Shown here one piece after another: positions 16,337 through 57,483 of a stretch of DNA of 64,000 nt. Source of the stretch: Chamaelirium japonicum (Eukaryota; Streptophyta; Magnoliopsida; Liliales; Melanthiaceae). The position numbers and the translations under genes were made by a program. Each line of letters begins with the position of its first letter. Positions within the stretch are counted from its first letter, which is position 1. The notes under the pieces are model-generated. The model was not told the origin of the DNA. It saw nothing but the letters and a program-made list of their open reading frames with translations, and did no database searches. The DNA lies in the NCBI GenBank assembly GCA_947650365.1, contig CANTAL010000133.1, forward strand, positions 744,001 to 808,000. Reading direction: 5' to 3'.

Positions 16337-17113
16337 GATCGGGCGAATGAATTAGAATGGATCGTATGAATGAATTAGAATGGATCGTATGAATGAATCA
16401 GAATGGATCGTGCGAATGAATTAGAATTCATCATACGAATGAATTAGAATGGACACATTCGTACGAATGAATTAGAATGGATCGTATGAATGAACTAGAT
16501 TGAATGAATTAGAATGGATCGTACGAATGAGTAAGAATGGATCGTATGAATGAATTAGAATGGATCGTGCGAATGAATTAGAATAGATCATGAGAATGAA
16601 TTAGAATGGATCGTACGAATGAACTAGAATGGATCGTATGAATGAATTAGATTGGATCGTGCGAATGAATTAGAATGGATCGTATGAATGAATTAGAATG
16701 GATAAATTCATGCGAATGAATTAGAATGGATCGTATGAATGAATTAGATTGGATCATATGAATGAATTAGAATGGATCGTGCGAATGAATTAGAATGGAT
16801 CGTACAAATGAATTAGAATGGATCGTACGAATGAATTAAAATGGATACATTCGTGCGAATGAATTAGAATGGATCAAACGAAGGAATTAGGGTGGATTGT
16901 ACGAATGAATTAGAATAGATACATTCGTGCGAAAGAATTAGAAGGGATTGTATGAATGAATTACAATGGATCCTATGAATGAATTAGAATGGATCGTACG
17001 AATGAATTAGAATGGATCGTATGAATGAATTAGAATGGATCGTGTGAATGAATTAGACTGGATCGTACGAATGAGTAAGAATGGATCGTACGAATGAAAT
17101 AGAATGGATCGTA
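16337..17113 (-). repeat. Satellite R domain 6
   Basis: Second copy of 870..1675. It has the same entry join (TAATGATCGGGCG), a GGAATTAGGGTGG unit near 16887, and the same CGTACGTACG exit at 17113. The offset is 15.44 to 15.47 kb. Confidence 0.92.
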
Positions 17114-17655
17114 CGTACGATCCATTATAATTCATTCATACGATCCATTCTAATTCATTCGCATGAATGTATCCATTCTAATTCCTTCGTACGATCCATT
17201 CTAATTAATTCGCACAATCTATTCTAATTCATTCGTACGATCCATTCTAATTCATTCGCACGATCCATTCTAATTCGTTTGTACGATCCATTCTAATTCA
17301 TTCATACAATCCATTCTAATTCTTTTGCACGAATGTATCCATTCTAATTCATTCGTACGATCCATTCTAATTCCTTCGTACAATCCATTCTAATTCCTTC
17401 GTACGATCCATTCTAATTCATTTTCAACGATCCATTCTAATTCATTCGTACGATCCATTCTAATTCTTACGTACGATCCATTCGAATTCATTCATACGAT
17501 ATATTCTAAGTCATTCATACGATCCATTCTAATTCATTTGCATGAATGTAACGATTCTAATTCATTTGTATGATCCAATCTAATTCATTCGCACGATCCA
17601 AACTAATTCTTTCATATGATCCATTCTAATTCATTCGTACGATCCATTCTAATTT
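17114..17655 (+). repeat. Satellite F domain 7
   Basis: Second copy of 1676..2191, ending at the same TTATGAATGAGTAAG join (17654). Confidence 0.9.
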
Positions 17656-18639
17656 ATGAATGAGTAAGATCCATTCGTGCGAATGATTAGAATGGATCGT
17701 ACGAATGTATTAGAATGGATCGTGCAAATGAATTAGAATGGATCGCACAAAGGAATGAATTAGAATGGATACATTCGTACAATCCATTCTAATTCATTCG
17801 TACGGTCCATTCTAATTCATTCGTACGATCCAGTCTAATTTATTCATACGATCCATTCTAATTCATATTCATTCGTATGATCCATTCTAATTTATTCGTA
17901 CGATCCATTCTAATTCATTCGTACGATCTATTCTAATTCATTCGTACGATCCATTCTAAATCATTCGCACGATCCATTCTAGAATGGATCGTACGAATGA
18001 GTAATAATAGATCGTACGAATGAAATAGAATGGATCGTACGAATGAATTAGAATGGATCGTGCTAATGAATTAGAATGGATTGTACAAATGAATTAGAAT
18101 AGATTGTACGTATGAATTAGAATGGATCGTACGAATGAATTAGAATGGATCGTGCGAATGAATTAGAATGGATCTTACGAATGATTTAGAATGGATCGTA
18201 CGAATGAATTAGAATGGATCGTACGAATGAATTAGAATGGATCGTACGAATGAATATGAATTAGAATTGATCGTATGAATGAATTAGAATGGATCGTACG
18301 AATGAATTAGAATGGATCGTACGAATGAATTAGAATGGATTGTACAAATGTATCCATTCTAATTCATTTCTTTTTGCGGTACATTCTAATTCATTAGCAC
18401 AAACCATTCTAATTCATTAATACGATCCATTCTAATTCATTCGTACGATCCATTCTTGTTCATTCGCACAATCTATTCTAATTCATATATACGATCCATT
18501 CTAATTCATTAGCACGATCTTTTCTAATTCATTCGTACGATCCATTCTATTTCATTCGTACGATCCATTCTTATTCATTCGTACGATCGTATGAATGAAT
18601 TAGAATGAATTAGAATGGATCGTATGAATTAGAATGGAT
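17656..18639. repeat. Short-range inversion mosaic, right copy
   Basis: R 17656..17774, F 17775..17980, R 17981..18349, F 18350..18586 and R 18587..18639 repeat the pattern of 2192..3162. The match includes the TCTAGA join (17978..17983), the TTCTTT irregularity near 18370 (compare 2905) and the TACGATCGTATG join near 18587. Confidence 0.88.
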
Positions 18640-28043: not shown

Positions 28044-28552
28044 CGATCGTACGAATGAATAAGAATGGATCATACGAATAAAATAGAATGGATCGTTGAA
28101 ATGAATTAGAATGGATCGTGCTAATGAATTAGAATGGATCGTACGAATGAATTAGAATAGATCGTGCGAATGAATTAGAATGGATCGTACGAATGAATTA
28201 GAATGGATCGTATGAATGAATTAAAATCGATCGTACGAATGAATTAGAATGGATCATACGAATGAATTAGAATGGATTGTACGAATGAATTATAATGGAT
28301 CGTGCGAATGAATTAGAATAGATTGTGCGAATGATGAATTAGAATGGATTAGAATGGATCATGCGAATGACTTAGAATAGATCGTACGAATGAATTAGAG
28401 TGGATACATTAGTCCGAATGAATTAGAATGGATCGTATGAATGAATTAGAATGGATCGTACGAAGGAATTAGAATGGATCGTGCGAATGAATTAGAATGG
28501 GTCGTACGAATGAATTAGCGTGGATACATTCGTGTGAATGAATTAGAATAGA
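28044..28552 (-). repeat. Satellite R domain 13
   Basis: R units with AATGATGAATTAG near 28330 (compare GACGAATTAG at 54292). It ends in GATCATTCTAATCC. Counterpart: 54003..54511. Confidence 0.9.
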
Positions 28553-29371
28553 TCATTCTAATCCATTCTAATTTATTCGTACGATCCATTCTAATTCATA
28601 CGTATGATCCATTCTAATTCATTCATACGATCCAATCTAGTTCATTCATACGATCCGTTCTAATTCATTCGCATGAAAGTATCCATTATAATTCATTCTA
28701 ATTCCTTTATTACGATCCATTCTAATTCCTTCGCACGAATGTATCCATGCACGAATGTATCCATTCTAATTCATTCGTACGATCCATTCTAATTCCTTCG
28801 TACAATATATTCTAATTCATTCGCAAGATCCATTCTAAATCATTCATATGATCCATTCTAATACATTCGTATGATCCATTCTAATTCATTCGCACAATCG
28901 ATTCTAATTTATTCGTACGATCCATTCTAATTCATTAGCACGAATGTATCTATTCTAATTCTAATCCATTCTAATTCATTCGTACAATCCACCCTAATTC
29001 CTTCGTACGATCCATTCGCATTCCTTCGTATGATCCATTCTAATTCCTTCGTACGATCAATTCTATTTCATTCGAATGATCCATTCTAATTCATTCGTAC
29101 GATCCATTCTAATTCATTGCGATGAATGTACCCATTCTAATTCATACGTACGATCCATTCTAATTCATTCATACGATCCAATCTAATTCATTCATACGAT
29201 CCATTCTAATTCATTCGTACGATCCATTCTAATTCATTCGCACAATCTATTCAAATTCATTCGTACGATCCATTCTAATTCATTAGCACGATCCATTCTA
29301 ATTCATTCGTATGATCCATTCTATTTCATTCGTACGATCCATTCTTACTCATTCATACAATCAAGTCTAAT
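28553..29371 (+). repeat. Satellite F domain 13
   Basis: F units including the CATTCGCATTCC variant near 29014. It ends at the irregular ACAATCAAGTCTAATTAG. The counterpart 54512..55324 ends at the same irregular join (offset 25,953 bp). Confidence 0.9.
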
Positions 29372-29828
29372 TAGAATGGATCGTACGTATGAATTAGAAT
29401 GGATCGTACGAAGGAATTAGAATGGATCATACGAATAAAATAGAATGAATCATATGAAGGAATTAGAATGGATCATACGACAAATGAATTAGAATGAATT
29501 AGAATGGATCGTGCGAATGTAATTAGAATGGATCGTATGAATGAATTAGAATAAATTAGAATGGATCGTATGAATGAATCAGAATGGATTAGAATGGATC
29601 GTATGAATGAATTAGAATTTATTAGAATGGATCGTACGAAGGAATTACAATGGATCGTACGAATGAATTAGAATGAATACATTCGTGTGAATGAATTAGA
29701 ATGGATCGTATGAATGAATTAGATTGGATCGTATGAATGAATTATAATGGATCATATGAATGAATTAGAATGGATAATACGAATGAATTAGAATGGATCG
29801 TACGAAGGAATTAGAATGGATACATTCG
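29372..29828 (-). repeat. Satellite R domain 14
   Basis: R units with CATACGACAAATG near 29473 and several doubled AATTAGAATG halves. It ends at ACATTCGTACGATCC. Counterpart: 55325..55786. Confidence 0.9.
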
Positions 29829-30626
29829 TACGATCCTTTCTAATTCATTCATACAATCCATTCCAATTCATTCGCACGAATGTATCCATTCAAATTCATT
29901 CGTATGATCCACCCTAATTCCTTCGTATGATCCATTCTAATTCTTTCGCGTGAATGTATCCATTCTAATTCATTCGTAAGATCCATTCTAATTCATTCGC
30001 ACGATCGTATGAATGAATTAGAATGGATCGTGCGAATGAGTTAGAATGGATCGTATAAATGAATTCGAATGGATCGTACGAATAGATTAGAATAGATACA
30101 TTCGTGCGTATGAATTAGAATGGATCATATGAAGGAATTAGGGTGGATCGTACGAATGAATTAGAATGGATACATTCGTGCGAAAGAATTAGAATGGATT
30201 GTATGAATGAATTAGAATAGATCGTACAAATGTATCCATTCTAATTCCTTCGCACGATCCATTCTAATTCATTCGTACGATCCATTCTAATCCATTCCCA
30301 TTCTAATTCATTCATACGATGCAATCTAATTCATTCATACGATCCATTCTAATTCATTCGCACGAATGTATCCATTCTAATTCATTCGCACGAATGTATC
30401 AATCTAAATAATTAGCACGAATTCATTAGAATGGATCATACGAATGAATTAGAATGGATTAGAATGGATCGTATGAATGAATTCGAATGGATTGTACGAA
30501 TGAATTATAACGGATCGTACGAATGAGTAAGAATGTTTCATACGAATGAATTAGAATGGATCGTACGAATGAATTAGAATAGATCGTACAAATGAATTAG
30601 AATGGATCGTACGAATGAATTAGAAT
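29829..30626. repeat. Inversion mosaic
   Basis: F 29829..30003, R 30004..30230, F 30231..30424 and R 30425..30626. Distinct joins are CACGATCGTATG (30003), ACAAATGTATCC (30230), TTAGCACGAATTCATTAG (30410..30427) and AATAATCC (30625). All four recur in order in 55787..56673. Confidence 0.88.
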
Positions 30627-31363
30627 AATCCATTCTAATTCATTCGTACAATCCATTCTAATTCATTCGTACGATCCATCCTAATTCCTTCGTATGACCC
30701 ATTCTAATTCATTCGCACGAATGTATCCATTCTAATTCATTCGTACGATCCATTCTAATTCATTCGCATGATCCATTCTAATTCATTCATACGATCTATT
30801 TTAATTCATTTATACGATCCATTCTAATTCATTCGCACGATCCAATCTATTTCATTCGTACGATCCATTCTTACTTATTCGTACGATCCATTCTAATTCA
30901 TTGGCACGAATGTATCCATTCTAATTCATTCGTACGATCCATTCTAATTCATTCGCACGATCCATTCTAATTCATTCATATGATCTATTCTAATTCATTC
31001 GTACGATCCATTCTAATTCATTCGCACAATCTATTCTAATTCATTCGTACGATCCTTTCTAATTCATTAGCACGATCCATTCTAATTCATTCGTATGATC
31101 CATTCTATTTCATTCGTACGATCCATTCTTACTCATTCGTACGATCCATTCTAATTCATTCGCACGAATGTATCCATTCTAATTCATTCGAACGATCCAT
31201 TCTAATTCCTTCGTACAATCCATTCTATTTCATTCATACGATCCATTCTAATTCATTCATACAATCCATTCTTATTCTTTCACACGAATCTATCCATTCT
31301 AATACATTCGTACGTATGATCCATTCTAATTCATTCATTTGTACGATCCATTCTAATTCCTTC
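30627..31363 (+). repeat. Satellite F domain 15 with a 258-bp higher-order repeat
   Basis: 28-bp units at 30908 and 31166 are 258 bp apart (10 x 23 + 28). The same pair is at 57028 and 57286. The domain ends at CCTTCGTGCGAATG. Confidence 0.9.
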
Positions 31364-37290: not shown

Positions 37291-40200
37291 ATTTTAATTC
37301 ATTCGTACGATCCATTCTAATTCATTCGCACGATCCATTCTAATTCATTCATACGATCCATTCTAATTTATTCATATAATCCATTCTAATTCTTTCGCAC
37401 AAATGTATCCATTCTAATTCATTCGTACAATCCACCCTAATTCCTTCGTATGATCCATTCTAATTCATTCGCACGAATGTATCCATTCTAATTCATTCGT
37501 ACGATCCATTCGAATTCATTCATACGATTCATTCTATTTCATTCGTACGATCCATTCTAATTCATTCGCACGAATGTATCCATTCTAATTCATTCAAACG
37601 ATCCATTCTAATTCATTCGCAAGACCCAATCTAGTTTATTCGCATTATCCATTCTAATTCATTCGTACGATCCATTCTATTTCATTCGTACGATCCATTC
37701 TTACTCATTCGTACGATCCATTCTAATTCATTCGCACAAATGTATCCATTCTAATTCATTCGTACGATCCATTCTAATTCATCCATACGATCCATTCTAA
37801 TTCATTCGTACGATCCATTCTAACTCATTCGTACGATCCATTCTAATTCATTAGCACGATCCATTCTAATTCATTCATACGATCCATTCTAATTCATACG
37901 ATCCATTCTAATTCATTCATACATTCCATTCTAATTCATTCGTATGATCCATTCTAATTAATTCATACGATCCATTCTATTTCATTCGTACGATCCATTC
38001 TTACTCATTCGTACGATCCATTCTAATTCATGCGCATTATACAATCTAATTCATTCGCACGATCCATTCTAATTCATTCGTACGATCTATTCTATTTCAT
38101 TCGTATGATCCATTCTTACTCATTCGTACGATCCATTCTAATTCATTTGCACGAAGGTATCCTTTCTATTTCATTCGTACGATCCATTCTAATTCATTCG
38201 CACGATCCATTCTAATTCATTCATACGATCAATTCTAATTCATTCGTACGATCCATTCTAATTCATTCAAACAATCCATTCTAATTCTTTCACACGAATG
38301 TATCCATTCTAATTCATTCGTACGATCCATTCTAATTCGTTCGCATGATCCATTCTAATTCATTCATACGATCCATTCTAATTCATACGTACGATCCATT
38401 CGAATTCATTCATACGATCCATTCTAATTCATTCATACGATCCATTCTAATTCATTCGCATCAATGTATCCATTCTAATTCATTCGTACGATCCATTCTA
38501 ATTCATTCGCACGATCCAATCTAATTTATTCGCACGATCCATTCAAATTCATTAGTACGATCCATTCTATTTCATTCATACGATCCATTCTTACTCATTC
38601 GTACGATCCATTCTAATTCATTCGCACGAATGTATCCATTCTAATTCATTCGTATGATCCATTCTAATTCATTCACACGATCCATTCTAATTCATTCATA
38701 CGATCCATTCTAATTCATTCATACGATCCATTCTAATTCATTCATACGATCCTTTCTAATTCATTCGCACAATCTATTCTAATTCATTCGTATGATCCAT
38801 TCTAATTCGTTAGCACGATCCATTCTAATTCATTCGCACGATCCATTCTAATTCATTCGTGCAAAAGAATTAGAATGGATTGCACGAATGTATCCATTCT
38901 AATTCATTCGTACGATCCATTCTAATTCCTGCGTACGATCCATTCTAATTCATTCATACGATCCAATCTAATTCATTCAAACGATCCATTCTAATTCATT
39001 CGCACGAATGTATCCATTCTAATTCATTCGTACGATCCATTCTAATTCATTCGCACAATCTATTCTAATTCATTCGTACGATCCATTCTAATTTATTAGC
39101 ACGATCCATTCTAATTCATTCGTACGATCCATTCTATTTCATTCTTACTCATTCGTACGATCCATTCTAATTCATTTGCACGAATGTATCCATTCTAATT
39201 CATTCGTACGATCCATTCTAATTCATTCACACGATCCATTCTAATTCATTCATACGATCCATTCTAATTCATTCGCACGAATGTATCCATTCTAATTCAT
39301 TCGTACGATCCATTCTAATTCATTCGCACAATCTATTCTAATTCATTCGTACGATCCATTCTAATTCATTAGCACGATCCATTATAATTCATTCGTACAA
39401 TCCATTCTTTTTCATTCGTACAATTCATTCTTACTCATTCGTACGATCCATTCTAATTCATTCGAACGAATGTATCCATTCTAATTCATTCGTACGATCC
39501 ATTCTAATTCATTCGCACAATCCATTCTAATTCATTCATACGATCCATTCTAATTCATTCGTACGATCCATTCTAATTTATTTGCACGATCCATTCTAAT
39601 TCATTCATACAATCCATTCTAATTTATTCGCACAATCTATTCTAATTCATTCGTACGATCCATTCTAATTCATTAGCACGATCCATTCTAATTCATTCGT
39701 ACGATCCATTCTATTTCATTCGTACGATCCATTCTTACTCATTAGCACAATCCATTCTAATTCATTCGCACGATCCATTCTAATTCATTCATACGATCCA
39801 TTCTAATTCTTTCGCACGAATGTATCCATTCTAATTCATTCGTACGATCCACCGTAATTCCTTCGTATGATCCATTCTAATTCATTCGTACGATCCATTC
39901 GAATTCATTCATACGATCCATTCTAATTCATTCATACGATCCATTCTAATTCAGTCGCACGAATCTATCCATTATAATTCTTTCGTACGATCCATTCTAA
40001 TTCATTCGCACGATCTATTCTAATTCATTCGTACGATCCATTCTAATTCATTAGCACGATCCATTCTAATTCATTTGTACGATCCATTCTATTTCATTCG
40101 TACAATCCATTCTTACTCATTCGTACGATCCATTATAATTCATTCGCACGAATGTATGCATTCTAATTCATTCGTACGATCCATTCTAATTCATTCGCAC

Positions 40201-40310
40201 GATCCATTCTAATTCATTCGTACGATCCATTCTAATTCATTCGCACGATCCATTCTAATTCATTCACACAATCTATTCTAATTCATTTGTAATTCATTTG
40301 CACGATCATT

Positions 40311-40478
40311 CAGGTGTTTAGGTTGCGGCCCCAGACTTTGTATTTGGTTGAATACAAAGGTGCACCTTTGAACGTTAGTTGATCGTGGGGAGACCCTGTG
40401 TGATCCATTCTAATTCATTCAAAGGTGCACCTTTGTATTTAACAAATACAAAGTCTGAGGCCGCAACGTAAACTCCTG
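40311..40478. mobile_element. Foldback (MITE-like) element, copy A, 168 bp
   Basis: This is non-satellite DNA. The left arm is 40311..40370 and the right arm 40420..40478, ending CAGG...CCTG. The arms carry GTTGCGGCC, CAGACTTTGTATTTG and, at their inner ends, the perfect 16-bp palindrome CAAAGGTGCACCTTTG (40355..40370 and 40420..40435). Each arm also holds its own hairpin, CTTTGTATT with AATACAAAG (40336..40359 on the left). The 49-bp loop (40371..40419) has 31 bp of foreign sequence with GGGGAGACCC, then 18 bp of F satellite. There is no room for a protein, so it is non-autonomous if mobile. CAGG/CCTG ends recall some DNA-transposon ends, but I cannot assign a superfamily. GATC (decayed on the right to AATC) flanks ATTCAGG and its mirror; this could be a 4-bp target duplication or just the palindromic flank. 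Confidence 0.8.
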
Positions 40479-41508
40479 CATAATCGTGCGAACGAATTAC
40501 GAATGAATTAGAATGGATCGTGCAAATGAATTAGAATGGATCGTACGAATGAATTAGAATGGATCGTATGAATGAATTAGAATGGATCGTGCGAATGAAT
40601 TAGAATGGATCGTACGAATGAATTAGAATGGATCGTACGAATGAATTAGAATGGATACATTCGTGCGAATAAATTAGAATGGATCGTCCGAATAAGTAAG
40701 AATGGATCGTACGAATGAAATAGAATGGATCATACGAATGAATTAGAATGGATCGTGCGAATGAATTAGATTGGATCATGCGAATGAATTAGAATGGATT
40801 GTACGAATGAGTAAGAATGGATCGTACGAAAGAAAAAGAATGGATCGTATGAAATGATTTAGAAATGGATCATGCGAATAAGGATACATTCGTGCGAATG
40901 AATTAGAATGGATCGTACGAATGAGTAAGAATGGATCGTACGAATGAAATAAAATGGATCGTACGAATGAGTAAGAATGGATTGTACGAATGAAATAGAA
41001 TGGATTGTATGAATGAATTAGAATGGATCGTGCGAATGAATTAGATTGGATCGTGCGAATGAATTAGATTGGATCATATGAATGAATTAGAATGGATACC
41101 TTCGTGCGAATGAATTAGAATGGATCATATGAATGAATTAGAATGGATCGTATGAATGAATTCGAATGGATCGTACGAATGAATTTGAATTGATACATTC
41201 GTGCGAATGAATTAGAATGGATCATACGAAGGAATTAGGGTGCATCGTACGAATTAATTAGAATGGATGCATTCGTGCGAAAGAATTAGAATGGATTGTA
41301 TGAATGAATTAGAATGGATCATATGAATGAATTAGAATGGATCGTGCGAATGAATTAGAATGGATCGTACGATGAATTAGAATGGATCGTATGAATGAAT
41401 TCGAATGGATCGTACGAATGAATAAGAATGGATACATTCGTGCGAATGAATTAGAATGGATCATATGAAGGAATTAGAATAGATAGTACGAATGAATTAG
41501 AATGGATC
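40479..41508 (-). repeat. Satellite R domain right of foldback A
   Basis: The first bases (AATCGTGCGAACGAATTACG) mirror the F flank left of the element. A marker GAAATGATTTAGAAATGG at 40851 recurs at 44662. It ends in GAATGGATCCATTC. Confidence 0.9.
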
Positions 41509-41886
41509 CATTCTATTCTAATTCATTCACACGATCCATTCTAATTCATTCATACGATCTATTCTAATTCATTTATACAATCCATTCTAATTCTTTTGCA
41601 CGAATGTATCCATTCTAATTCATTCGTATGATCCACCCTAATTCATTCGTATGATCCATTCTAATTTATTCGCACGAATGTATCCATTCTAATTCATACG
41701 TACGATCCATTCTAATTCATTCATACGATCCAATCTAATTCATTCATGCGATCCATTCTAATTCATTCGCACGAATGTATCCAGGGGAATGATTCCATTC
41801 TAATTCACTCGTACGATCCATTCTAATTCATTCGTACGATCCAGTCTAATTCATTCGTATGATCCATTCTAATCCATTCGCACGAA
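41509..41886 (+). repeat. F cassette, second occurrence
   Basis: Same cassette as 24242..24691: opening CCATTCTATTC, an internal TCCAGGGGAATGATTCC near 41771, and ending CGAATGGAATG. Confidence 0.9.
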
Positions 41887-42699
41887 TGGAATGAATTAGA
41901 ATGGATCGTACGAATGAATTAGAATGGATACATTCGTTCGAATGAATTAGAATGGATCGTATGAATGAGTTAGAATGATTCGTATGAAGGAATTAGAATG
42001 GATCGTACGTATGAATTAGAAAGGATACATTCATGGGAATGAACAAGAATGGATCGTATGAAGGAATTAGAATGAGTCATACGAATGAAATAGAATGGAT
42101 CGTGCGAATGAATTAGAATGGATCGTACGAATGAATTAGAATGGATCGTACGAATGAATTAGAATGGATCGTGCGAATGAATTAGAATGGATCGTAAGAT
42201 TGAATTAGAATGGATACATTCGTGCGAATGAATTTGAATGGATCGTATGAATGAGTAAGAATGGATCGTACGAATGAAATAGAATGGATCGTACGAATGA
42301 ATTAGAATGGATCGTGCTAATGAATTAGTGTGGCTCATACGAATGAATTAGAATAGATTGTCCGAATGAATTAGAATGGTTCTTACAAATGAATTAGAAT
42401 GGATACATTCGTGCGAATGAATTAGAATGGATCGTATGAATGAATTAGATTGGATCGTATGAATGAATTAGAATGGATCGTACGTATGAATTAGAATGGA
42501 TACATTCATGGGAATGATCTAGAATGGATCGTACGAAGGAATTAGAATGGATCATACGAACAATATAGAATGGATCGTACGAAGGAATTAGACTGGATTG
42601 TACGTTATGAATGAATTAGAATGGATCATACATATGAATTAGAATTGATACATTCATGGGAATGAATTAGAATGGATCGTACGAAGGAAATAGAAGGGA
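41887..42699 (-). repeat. Satellite R domain 19
   Basis: R units with GATACATTCATGGG near 42020, 42500 and 42645 and a shortened join TACGTTATGAATG near 42603 that recurs near 46512. It ends in AGGGATCCATTC. Confidence 0.9.
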
Positions 42700-44103
42700 T
42701 CCATTCTAATTCATTCATACGATCCATTCTAATTCATTCATACGGTCCATTCTAATTCATTCATACGATCCAATCTAATTCATTCATATGATCCATTCTA
42801 ATTCATTCCCATGCTAATTCATTCGTACAATCGATTCTAATTCATTCGCATGATCCAATCTAATTCATTCGCACGATCCATTCTAATTCATCATTCGCAC
42901 AATCCATTCTAATTCATTCGTATGATCCATTCTAATTCATTAGCACGATCCATTATAATTCATTCGTACAATCCATTCTTTTTCATTCGTACGATCCATT
43001 CTTACTCATTCGTACGATCCGTTCTAATTCATTCGCACGAATGTATCCATTCTAATTCATTCGTATGATCCATTCTAATTCATTCGCACGATCCATTCTA
43101 ATTCATTCATATGATCCATTCTAATTCATTTGTACGATCCATTCTAATTTATTCACACGATCCATTCTAATTCATTCATACGATCCATTCTAATTCATTC
43201 GCACTAATGTATCCATTCTAATTCATTCGTACGATCCACCCTAATTCCTTCGTATGATCCATTCTAATTCATTCGCACGAATGTATCCATTCTAATTTAT
43301 TCGTACGATCCCTTCGAATTCATTCATACGATCCATTCTAATTCATTCATACGAACCATTCTAATTCATTCGCACGAATGTATCCATTCTAATTTATTCG
43401 CACGATCCATTCTAATTCATTCACACAATCTATTCTAATTCATTCGTACGATCCATTCTAATTCATTACCACGATCCATTCTAATTCATTCGTACGATCC
43501 ATTCTATTTCATTCGTACGATCCATTCTTACTCATTAGCACAATCCATTCTAATTCATTCGCACGATCCATTCTAATTTATTCATACGATCCATTCTAAT
43601 TCATTCATACAATCCATTCTAATTCTTTTGCACAAATGTATCCATTCTAATTCACTCGTACGATCCACCCTAATTCCTTTGTATGATCCATTCTAATTCA
43701 TTCGTACGATCCATTCGAATTCATTCATACGATCCATTCTAATTCATTCATACGATCCATTCTAATTCATTCGCACGAATGTATCCATTCTAATTCATTC
43801 GTACGATCCATTCTAATTCATTCACACGATCTATTCTAATTCATTCGTACGATCTATTCTAATTCATTAGCACGATCCATTCTAATTCATTCGAACGATC
43901 CATTCTATTTCATTCGTGCGATCCATTCTTACTCATTCGTACGATCCATTATAATTCATTCGCACGAATGTATCCATTCTTATTCATTCGTACGATCCAT
44001 TCTAATTCATTCGCACGATCCATTCTAATTCATTCGTACGATCCATTCTAATTCATTCGCACAATCTATTCTAATTCATTCGTAATTCATTCGCACGATC
44101 ATT
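42700..44103 (+). repeat. Satellite F domain left of foldback B
   Basis: Copy of the flank left of foldback A. CATTCTTTTTC at 42974 matches 39403, and CTCATTAGCACAATCC at 43531 matches 39738 (offset 3,793 bp). 28-bp units at 43205, 43279 and 43376 are spaced 74 and 97 bp. It runs straight into the second foldback. Confidence 0.9.
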
Positions 44104-44272
44104 CAGGTGTTTAAGTTGCGGCCTCAGACTTTGTATTTGGTTGAATACAAAGGTGCACCTTTGAACGTTAGTTGATCGTGGGGAGACCCTGTGTTATCCA
44201 TTCTAATTCATTCAAAGGTGCACCTTTGTATTTAACCAAATACAAAGTCTGAGGCCGCAACGTAAACTCCTG
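44104..44272. mobile_element. Foldback (MITE-like) element, copy B, 169 bp
   Basis: The left arm is 44104..44163, the loop 44164..44212 and the right arm 44213..44272. The 60-bp arms pair at 57 of 60 positions, with differences at arm positions 5, 11 and 40. Compared with copy A there are three substitutions and one 1-bp indel, under 3% difference. The flanks are GATC then ATTCAGG on the left and CCTGAAT then GATC on the right. The satellite flanks mirror each other for at least 33 bp with one mismatch, including a shared shortened unit (CGTAATTC). The copy arose with the surrounding segment of about 3.8 kb rather than by a separate insertion, because the flanking satellite matches copy A in detail. 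Confidence 0.82.
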
Positions 44273-45270
44273 AATGATCGTGCGAACGAATTACGAATGA
44301 ATTAGAATGGATCGTGCGAATGAATTAGAATGGATCGTACGAATGAATTAGAATGGATCGTATGAATGAATTAGAATAGATCGTGCGAATGAATTAGAAT
44401 GGATCATACGAATGAATAAGAATTGATCGTACGAATGAATGGATCGTACGAATGAATTAGAATAGATACATTCGTGCGAATGAATTAGAATGGATCGTAC
44501 AAATGAGTAAGAATGGATTATACGAATGAAATAGAATGGATCATACGAATGAATTAGAATGGATCGTGCGAATAAATTAGATTGGATCATGCGAATGAAT
44601 TAGAATGGATTGTACGAATGAGTAAGAATGGATCGTACGAAAGAAATAGAATGGATCGTATGAAATGATTTAGAAATGGATCGTGCGAATAAGGATACAT
44701 TCGTGCGAATGAATTAGAATGGATCGTACGAATGAGTAAGAATGGATCGTACGAATAAAATAGAATGGATCGTACGAATGAATTAGAATGGATTATGCGA
44801 ATGAATTAGATTGGATCATGCGAATGAATTAGATTGGATCGTACGAATAAATTAGAATGGATACATTCATGCGAATGAATTAGAATGGATCGTATGAATG
44901 AGTTACAATGGATCGTATGAATAAATTCGAATGGATCGTACGCATGAATTTGAATGGATACATTCGTGCGAATGAATTAGAATGGATCATACGAAGGAAT
45001 TAGGGTAGATCGTACGAATGAATTAGAATGGATACAATCGTGTAAAAGAATTAGAATGGATTGTATGAATGAATTAGAATGGATCGTATGAATGAATTAG
45101 AATGGATCGTGCTAATGAATTAGAATAGATCGTATGATGAATTAGAATGGATCGTATGAATGAATTCGAATGGATCGTACGAATGAATTAGAATGTATAC
45201 ATTCGTGCGAATGAATTAGAATGGATCATACGAAGGAATTAGAATGGATAGTACGAATGAAACAGAATGG
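44273..45270 (-). repeat. Satellite R domain right of foldback B
   Basis: Copy of 40479..41508, including the GAAATGATTTAGAAATGG mark (44662) and the TTAGGGTAG unit near 45001. It ends in CAGAATGGATCCATTC. Confidence 0.9.
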
Positions 45271-54002: not shown

Positions 54003-54511
54003 GATCGTACGAATGAATAAGAATGGATCTTATGAATTAAATAGAATGGATCATACAAATGAATTAGAATTGATCGTGCTAATGAATTAGAATGGATCGT
54101 ACGAATGAATTTGAATTGATCGTGCGAATGAATTAGAATAGATCGTATGAATGAATTAGAATGGATCGTATGAATGAATTAGAATCGATCGTGCGAATGA
54201 ATTAGAATGGATCGTACGAATGAATTAGAATGGATCGTACGAATGAATTAAAATCGATCGTGCGAATGAATTAGAATAGATTGTGCGAATGACGAATTAG
54301 AATGGATTAGAATGGATCGTGCGAATGTATTAGAATGGATCGTACGAATGAATTAGAGTGGATACATTTGTCCGAATGAATTACAATGGATCATATGAAT
54401 GAATTAGAATGGATCGTACGAAGGAATTAGAATGGATCGTGCGAATGAATTAGAATGGATCATACGAATGAATTAGAATGGACACATTCGTGTGAATGAA
54501 TTAGAATGGAT
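54003..54511 (-). repeat. Satellite R domain 25
   Basis: Counterpart of 28044..28552, beginning at CATACGATCGTACG and ending in GATCATTCTAATCC. Confidence 0.9.
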
Positions 54512-55324
54512 CATTCTAATCCATTCTAATTCATTCGTACGATCCATTCTAATTCATACGTACGATCCATTCTAATTCATTCATACGATCCAATCTAGTT
54601 CATTCATACGATCCATTCTAATTCATTCGCACGAATGTATCCATTCTAATTCATTCTAATTCCTTCGTACGACCCATTCGTACGATCTATTCTAATTCCT
54701 TCGCACGAATGTATCCATTCTAATTCATTCGTACAATCCATTCTAATTCCTTCGTACAATACATTCTAATTAATTCGCAAGATCCATTCTAATTCATTCA
54801 TACGATCCATTCAAATACATTCGTATGATCCATTCTAATTCATTTGCACAATCTATTCTAATTCATTCGTACAATCCATTCTAATTCATTAGCACGAATG
54901 TATCCATTCTAATTCTCATCCATTCTAATTCATTCGTACGATCCACCCTAATTCCTTCGTACGATCCATTCGCATTCCTTCGTATGATCCATTCTAATTC
55001 CTTCGTACGATCAATTCTATTTCATTCGAATGATCCATTCTAATTCCTTCGTACGATCCATTCTAATTCATTCACATGAATGTATCCATTCTAAATCATA
55101 CGTATGATCCATTCTAATTCATTCATACGATCGAATCTAATTCATTCATACGATCCATTCTAATTCATTCGTACGATCCATTCTAATTCATTCGCACGAT
55201 CCATTCAAATTCATTCGTACGATCCATTCTAATTCATTAGCACGATCCATTCTAATTCATTCGTACGATCCATTCTATTTCATTCGTACGATCCATTCTT
55301 ACTCATTCATACAATCAAGTCTTA
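54512..55324 (+). repeat. Satellite F domain 26
   Basis: Counterpart of 28553..29371, with the same CATTCGCATTCC unit and the ACAATCAAGTCTTATTAG exit. Confidence 0.9.
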
Positions 55325-55786
55325 TTAGAATGGATCGTACGTATGAATTAGAATAGATCGTACGAAGGAATTAGAATGGATCATACGAATGAAATAGAAT
55401 GGATCGTACGAAGGAATTAGAATGGATCATACGACAAATGAATTAGAATGAATTAGAATGGATCGTGCGAATGTAATTAGAATGGATCGTATGAATGAAT
55501 TAGAATAAATTAGAATGGATCGTATAAATGAATTAGAATGGATTAGAATGGATCGTATGAATGAATTAGAATGGATTAGAATGGATCATACGAAGGAATT
55601 AGAATGGATCGTACGAATGAATTAGAATGAATAGATTCGTGCGAATAAATTAGAATGGATCGTATGAATGAATTAGATTGGATCGTATGAATGAATTATA
55701 ATGGATTGTATGAATGAATTAGAATAGATAGTACGAATGAATTAGAATGGATCGTACGAAGGAATTAGAATGGATACATTCGTACG
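55325..55786 (-). repeat. Satellite R domain 26
   Basis: Counterpart of 29372..29828, including CATACGACAAATG and ending at ACATTCGTACGATCC. Confidence 0.9.
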
Positions 55787-56673
55787 ATCCTTTCTAATTC
55801 ATTCATACAATCCATTCTAATTCTTTCGCACGAATGTATCCATTCTAATTCATTCATACGATCCACCCTAATTCCTTCGTATGATCCATTCTAATTCTTT
55901 CGCACGAATGTATCCATTCTAATTCATTCGTACGATCCATTCTAATTTATTCGCAAGATCGTATGAATGAAATATAATGGATCGTATGAATGAATTAGAA
56001 TGGATTGTGCGAATAAATTATGATGGATCGTATGAATGAATTCGAATGGATCATACGAATGGATTAGAATGGATACATTCGTGCGTATGAATTAGAATGG
56101 ATCATACGAAGGAATTAGGGTGGATCGTACGAATGAATTAGAATGGATACATTCGTGTGAAAGAATTAGAATGGATTGTATGAATGAATTAGAATAGATC
56201 GTACAAATGTATCCATTCTAATTCCTTCGTACGATCCATTCTAATTCATTCGTACGATCCAATCTAATTCATTCCCTTTTTAATTCATTCATACGATGCA
56301 ATTTAATTCATTCATACGATCCATTCTAATTCATTCGCACGAATATATCCATTCTAATTCATTCGTACGATCCATTCTAATTTATTCGTACGACCTATTC
56401 TAATTCATTCATACGATCCATTCTAATTCATTCGCACGAATGTATCAATCTAATTTATTAGCACGAATTCATTAGAATGGATCGTACGAATGAATTAGAA
56501 TGGATTAGAATGGATCGCCTGAATGAATTCGAATGGATCGTACGAATGAATTAGAATGGATCGTACGAATGAGTAAGAATGGTTCGTACGAATGATTTAG
56601 AATGGATTGTATGAATAAATTAGAATGGATCGTACAAATAAATTAGAATGGATCGTACGAATGAATTAGAATA
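55787..56673. repeat. Inversion mosaic, second copy
   Basis: F 55787..55959, R 55960..56208, F 56209..56468 and R 56469..56673. The joins match 29829..30626 one for one, including TTAGCACGAATTCATTAG near 56458. Confidence 0.88.
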
Positions 56674-57483
56674 ATCCATTCTAATTCATTCGTACTATCC
56701 ATTCTAATTCATTCATACGATCCATTCTAATTCATTCATACAATCCATTCTAATTCTTTTGCAAAAATGTATCCATTCTAATTCATTCGTACGATCCATC
56801 CTAATTCCTTCGTATGATCCATACTAATTCATTCGCACGAATGTATCCATTCTAATTCATTCGTACGATCCATTCCAATTCATTTGCACGATCCATTCTA
56901 ATTCATTCATACGATCCATTCTAATTCATTCATACGATCCATTCTAATTCATTCGCACGATCCATTCTATTTCATTTGTACGATCCATTCTTACTCATTC
57001 GTACGATCCATTCTAATTCATTGGCACGAATGTATCCATTCTAATTCATTCGTGCGATCCATTCTAATTCATTCGCACGATCCATTCTAATACATTCATA
57101 CGATCCATTCTAATTCATTCGTACAATCCATTCTAATTCATTCGCACAATCTATTCTAATTCATTCGTACGATCCTTTTTAATTCATTAGCACGATCCAT
57201 TCTAATTCATTCGTATGATCCATTCTATTTTATTCGTGCGATCCATTCTTACTCATTCGTACGATGCATTCTAATTCATTCGCACGAATGTATCCATTCT
57301 AATTCATTCGTACGATCCATTCTAATTCCTTCGTACAATCCATTCTATTTCATTCATACGATCCATTCTAATTCATTCATACAATCCATTCTAATTCTTT
57401 CACACGAATCTATCCATTCTAATACATTCGTATGTATGATCCATTCTAATTCATTCATTCATACGATCTATTCTAATTCCTTC
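56674..57483 (+). repeat. Satellite F domain 28
   Basis: Counterpart of 30627..31363, with the 258-bp higher-order repeat at 57028..57286. Confidence 0.9.

Follow-up and report, generated by a model that had tools for sequence, protein, structure and literature searches.

A recurrent arm-loop-arm unit in a 23-bp satellite array of Chamaelirium japonicum is probably an amplified fold-back junction

A 64,000-bp stretch of Chamaelirium japonicum DNA (hereafter the window; C145:744001-808000 of the 1.52 Gb genome that was searched) contains two copies of an arm-loop-arm unit, each placed where forward satellite gives way to reverse satellite. The unit is likely to be an amplified fold-back inverted-duplication junction that goes back to one old event in a satellite array. 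Its anatomy, the satellite flank that its copies have in common, the satellite monomer mirrored on its two sides and the resemblance of its arms to a dispersed repeat are described below, together with the alternatives that were weighed.

Anatomy of the unit and its satellite flanks

The window is made up of a 23-bp satellite (unit GATCCATTCTAATTCATTCGTAC) whose orientation alternates frequently. In a three-state scan, 504 of the 64,000 bp were labelled as non-satellite; 320 bp of these belong to the two units, and the other 184 bp are spread over seven patches of 17 to 37 bp that appear by eye to be diverged satellite. In the window, clear non-satellite DNA is confined to the arm-loop-arm units, as had been proposed in a sequence-only reading of the same stretch, which described an inverted-arm element of 168/169 bp in two copies. 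The units measure 168 bp (40311-40478) and 169 bp (44104-44272, forward strand), and both have forward satellite on the left and reverse satellite on the right. In the first, the left arm (40311-40372, forward strand) is followed by a single-copy loop of 45 nt (40373-40417, forward strand) and then by the right arm (40418-40478, reverse strand), which is the left arm in inverted copy. The last 16 bases of the loop are forward satellite again, and with 3 bases common to the right-arm boundary they make up 19 bp of perfect forward satellite (40402-40420, forward strand; GATCCATTCTAATTCATTC). The right arm is shorter than the left arm plus loop and abuts this forward satellite directly. In the consensus of 39 two-arm copies from the genome the centre is likewise unpaired, and 57 of 60 positions pair in the arms and 57 of 60 in the adjacent flanks, i.e., mismatch counts are equal for arm and adjoining flank (3/60 each). 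At the spacer boundary the inverted homology is GAA/TTC, 3 bp long (4 matching positions out of 5 if a mismatch is allowed), which is close to chance. No Rfam match at the gathering threshold was found in 40000-44600.

The palindrome runs on into the satellite. The left flank of the first unit (40286-40310, forward strand) carries a truncated monomer, TT.GTAATTC, and the right flank (40479-40503, reverse strand) carries the same monomer mirrored, with GAATTACGAA at 40494; the adjoining satellite runs in the scan are forward on the left (38885-40306) and reverse on the right (40483-41502). For the second unit, the mirrored flanks lie at 44079-44103 (forward strand) and 44273-44297 (reverse strand). 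Within the 64-kb window, over which its rarity was measured, the truncated monomer occurs four times, once per side of each unit, versus 2592 monomer cores. Among the 39 genome copies, GTAATTC and GAATTAC stand on the two sides in 34, and the mirrored monomer is missing on at least one side in five; it is also missing on the left at one further locus (L104). Over wider distances, similarity between a copy's own left and own right flank was 0.90, 0.90, 0.91, 0.81, and 0.83 in bins ending at 40, 120, 250, 400, and 550 bp, compared with 0.79, 0.88, 0.85, 0.82, and 0.81 in the mirror-symmetry controls, and controls equalled or exceeded the own mirror value in 142, 162, 125, 282, and 236 of 468 comparisons, respectively. 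Mirror symmetry of the whole flanks is weak, lying slightly above control to about 250 bp. The earlier description of the unit as the exact centre of a satellite palindrome holds locally, where the monomer within about 40 bp is mirrored, but fails at the scale of the array, where similarity does not rise above control beyond about 250 bp.

One site, amplified with the array

In a genome search with the unit, 40 of 458 candidates were scored, all at 97-100% identity; 39 of these were aligned (L001-L039), and the fortieth is the second window copy. All 39 lie at forward-to-reverse switches. Patterns for the outer arm and for the arm together with its satellite flank each gave 538 matches at no more than 3 mismatches (236 + 302 and 235 + 303 on the two strands), and reversed-pattern controls gave none. 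The strand counts, differing by one, show that the sets do not coincide fully; nevertheless, the arm is as frequent with the flank as without it, and the copies therefore trace to one ancestral site that was amplified. Dispersed copies at differing flanks, which the sequence-only reading had named as evidence against its own proposal, did not appear as a class anywhere in the genome at up to 3 mismatches, a threshold that more diverged copies would escape. The satellite flank is still present in all of 11 further places, several of which were picked for an inexact flank or arm. The left edge reads ATT/CAGG in 39 of 39 copies and the right edge CCTG/AATGAT is unchanged in 32, with point changes in the other seven; two of the 39 have an 11-bp gap in one flank. 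In 60 random pairs of copies, the left and the right flanks score 0.88-0.97 in similarity for each 50-bp step up to a distance of about 850 bp, as compared to 0.79-0.88 for random satellite in a control run against right flanks. A loop pattern had 697 genome matches, the internal junction of the two-arm unit 172, and the main single-arm junction (see below) 101; among the 424 loop matches left over there must be further single-arm forms as well as units of the dispersed repeat.

Comparison of the blocks around the two window units suggests how they came to lie together. Following the units, the first reverse runs are 89% alike, the next forward runs 76%, and the next reverse runs 85%, and the 1.4 kb preceding them are 86% alike. 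Unrelated reverse stretches, used as the control (20 pairs), average 79% and reach at most 84%. The two window units are therefore probably the product of one tandem duplication and not of two events, the second unit probably lying within a duplicate of the block that holds the first.

Most switches in the window are of other kinds. The run list of the scan, with non-satellite runs dropped and a few runs shorter than 20 bp included, gives 43 forward-to-reverse and 43 reverse-to-forward switches, and the unit is present at 2 of the former and none of the latter (2/86 overall). Blocks 1670-2878 and 17109-18339 have the same switch pattern and are 93% alike, and the same is true of 28045-30002 and 54003-55956 (94%); the stretches next to the latter pair, 30003-31361 and 55957-57481, are 85% alike, which is close to the control maximum. 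Additionally, six plain forward-to-reverse switches (3111, 18577, 28037, 29995, 53995, and 55949) have a GATC dyad in common and form a second recurrent switch type, without foreign DNA. Orientation switches are, at least in part, inherited by segmental duplication. Because only two switches carry the unit and other switch blocks are duplicated, the mosaic has other sources and is at least partly inherited, and the proposal that the element drives the inversion mosaic of the satellite is not upheld. The related proposal that it caused the neighbouring inversion survives in a narrower form: fold-back replication fits the origin of this one junction well, but is not a general cause of the mosaic.

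Source of the arms and origin of the junction

Eight places were retrieved with the loop pattern: six single-arm, one two-arm, and one in non-satellite DNA (L070, at C4:20073 kb). The last is a member of a dispersed repeat, for which scoring of 40 out of 558 candidates gave 124 matches and which contains several tandem arrays, with periods of about 67, 70, 72, 95, and 186 bp. Inner arm plus loop resemble a 185-bp tandem unit of this repeat, with 30 of 30 positions identical in L070 and, over 48 bp, 87.5% identity in L082 and 91.7% in L087; the latter is among five near relatives that a 46-base pattern picked up at 3 mismatches. Similarly, the outer arm matches a 70-bp tandem unit in L085 with 84% identity across 31 columns, and none of 100 dinucleotide shuffles reached the score of the inner or the outer arm. 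In 14 pieces of the dispersed repeat there are 243 local matches, none of them covering the two arm parts together; hence, either the captured fragment was rearranged or its source copy lay outside the pieces seen. At C4:20073-20083 kb (L070, L085, and L086), several different tandem arrays stand in a row, near a gag frame on the opposite strand; the frame, the one Retrotrans_gag match (L086:6010-6624), points away from the arrays. A Ty3/gypsy element of Tat/Retand type, in which tandem repeats lie between pol and the 3' LTR, may be a candidate source: tandem arrays are present, but the gag frame faces away from them, and pol and LTRs were not identified.

The following course of events, with its break and its priming, is inferred. 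About 95 bp of the tandem-repeat-rich dispersed repeat would have entered a forward satellite array. A strand that had broken or stalled, with forward satellite at its end (...CTAATTCATTC), would then have folded back so that its terminal TTC paired with the GAA within the fragment's TTTGAACG and primed synthesis; copying back through the fragment and the satellite on its left would yield, in a single step, the arm, the 45-nt loop, the inverted arm, and reverse satellite. Segmental duplication would have multiplied the junction together with the satellite around it, and deletion at short homologies may later have removed the right arm from some copies. The single ancestral site, the constant edges, the similar flanks, the resumption of forward satellite in the loop, the mirrored monomer, the equal mismatch counts of arm and flank, and the likeness of the arms to the dispersed repeat are counted in favor of this origin, whereas the 3-bp priming homology, the weak wider mirror symmetry, the copies that lack the mirrored monomer, the want of a dispersed-repeat match across both arm parts, and the missing parent are counted against it. 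The parent would be the un-inverted arrangement, in which the fragment is followed by forward satellite GTAC. The first pattern for it drew mostly satellite, with 172,888 matches and no exact one among the matches listed; a second gave 77 matches, all at 3 mismatches and none below, none of which is the parent and all of which read AAAG or AAAC, as in the two-arm copies.

The same arm-loop-arm junction could also result if two captured fragments in opposed orientation were joined by deletion or end joining, without fold-back synthesis, and the truncation of the right arm relative to left arm plus loop, with its direct joining to forward satellite, agrees with such an event. It is unlikely, however, as it requires two copies of the fragment, each with the same truncated monomer outside, and in 35 of 39 copies an ungapped count finds just 2-6 differences between the arms over 60 positions (the other four score 19 differences, as expected if a 1-bp indel shifts the register); none of the 77 matches to a fragment followed by forward satellite GTAC represents it either. 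Foldback and MITE DNA transposons have inverted terminal arms around a short core, and the sequence-only reading had considered insertion of such an element at a pre-existing inversion centre. The unit has similar arms around a short core, with CAGG ends, six plain forward-to-reverse junctions with a GATC dyad exist in the window, the kind of site at which such an element would have inserted before being amplified, and the GATC to the left and right of the unit could be taken for a target duplication, although the palindromic flank in itself makes GATC formally a direct repeat there. Nevertheless, insertion of a transposon is very improbable: the unit occupies one genomic site, with equal arm counts with and without the flank and no dispersal to different flanking sequences at up to 3 mismatches; its arms resemble two other repeat units; and an exact empty-site pattern had no match, a result of low power in that just 14 of the 39 real flank pairs fit the pattern. 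Finally, palindromes are a known source of chimeric reads, and the unit could in principle be an artefact of the assembly or library made from fold-back reads. This can be given hardly any credence, as the 172 internal-junction matches are distributed over many contigs and the 39 aligned copies differ by 2.2% on average, with 26 of 741 pairs identical.

Compared with known systems, the amplified fold-back junction finds its closest likeness in work on human and yeast DNA. According to PMC3907307, human fold-back inverted duplications are marked by a single-copy spacer that is bordered by short inverted sequences, and the unit likewise has inverted copies around a short single-copy spacer, the 45-nt loop; GAA/TTC, close to chance at 3 bp, is the candidate for the boundary sequence. 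The inverted copy of the unit continues into the parental flank (the monomer mirrored in 34 of 39 copies). The hairpin-mediated inversion described for yeast in PMC7467729 matches the proposed mechanism. Unlike the human and yeast cases, the present junction lies inside a satellite array, is amplified, and has 60-bp non-satellite arms in addition to satellite. Retrotransposon-internal tandem repeats give rise to satellites according to PMC7004042 and PMC11963269; here too, sequence is shared between a satellite region and a dispersed repeat in which short tandem arrays abound, but only a fragment was captured. Four satellite core strings did not occur in the literature searched, searches on satellite inversion with template switching and on orientation switches found no precedent, and other papers on related topics offered general precedents.

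Single-arm forms and the fate of the junction

Besides the two-arm form, four other kinds of right-hand junction occur, which look like later loss of the right arm. In a junction census, 92 of 114 loci were read, places too near a locus end being dropped, and scripted reading found the left-type inner arm at 70 distinct places, 52 of them two-arm and 18 single-arm. In the most frequent single-arm class (11 places) GTGTGATTC is joined to TACGAATG; in the others, GTTGA is joined to ATTAGAATG (four places), TTTGAA to TGAATTTG (two places), and TGATC to GTGCGAACG (one place, L113). The right arm is missing from all 18 and no place with a right arm only turned up, in a sample biased to left arms, as many places were picked by a left-arm or loop pattern; the outer left arm is kept in 17, the exception being L071. 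L113 retains the right-flank variant GTGCGAACG, and its sequence agrees with loss of the stretch between two TGATC repeats in the two-arm unit. The most frequent class retains TTCTA, which satellite in the loop could supply, and the TTTGAA copies are ambiguous in that their inner edge also resembles the inner edge of the right arm. Wide flanks were compared with 60 control stretches (of 62 available), and in 8 of 10 single-arm loci both flank scores were no higher than the best control stretch; L063 (left) and L071 (both sides) lie just above it. Mutual flank scores of two-arm copies are far higher, with one low left flank. Wide flanks thus give no evidence that the single-arm classes derive from the two-arm unit.

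It is conceivable, if quite doubtful, that the palindrome is an active seed of rearrangement, its copies continuing to lose the right arm and carrying a ready-made switch to new places. One fold-back accident would then keep feeding inverted blocks into the array, and the bias toward loss of the right arm would stem from replication or repair that passes through the palindrome in a fixed direction. Where satellite lies on both sides of a switch, little is left to tell how it arose. Here, a foreign fragment marks one switch, so that copies can be compared for how it formed, spread, and decayed, and the unit offers a traceable example of how a single fold-back event, as it probably was, may have been turned into a recurrent feature of a satellite.
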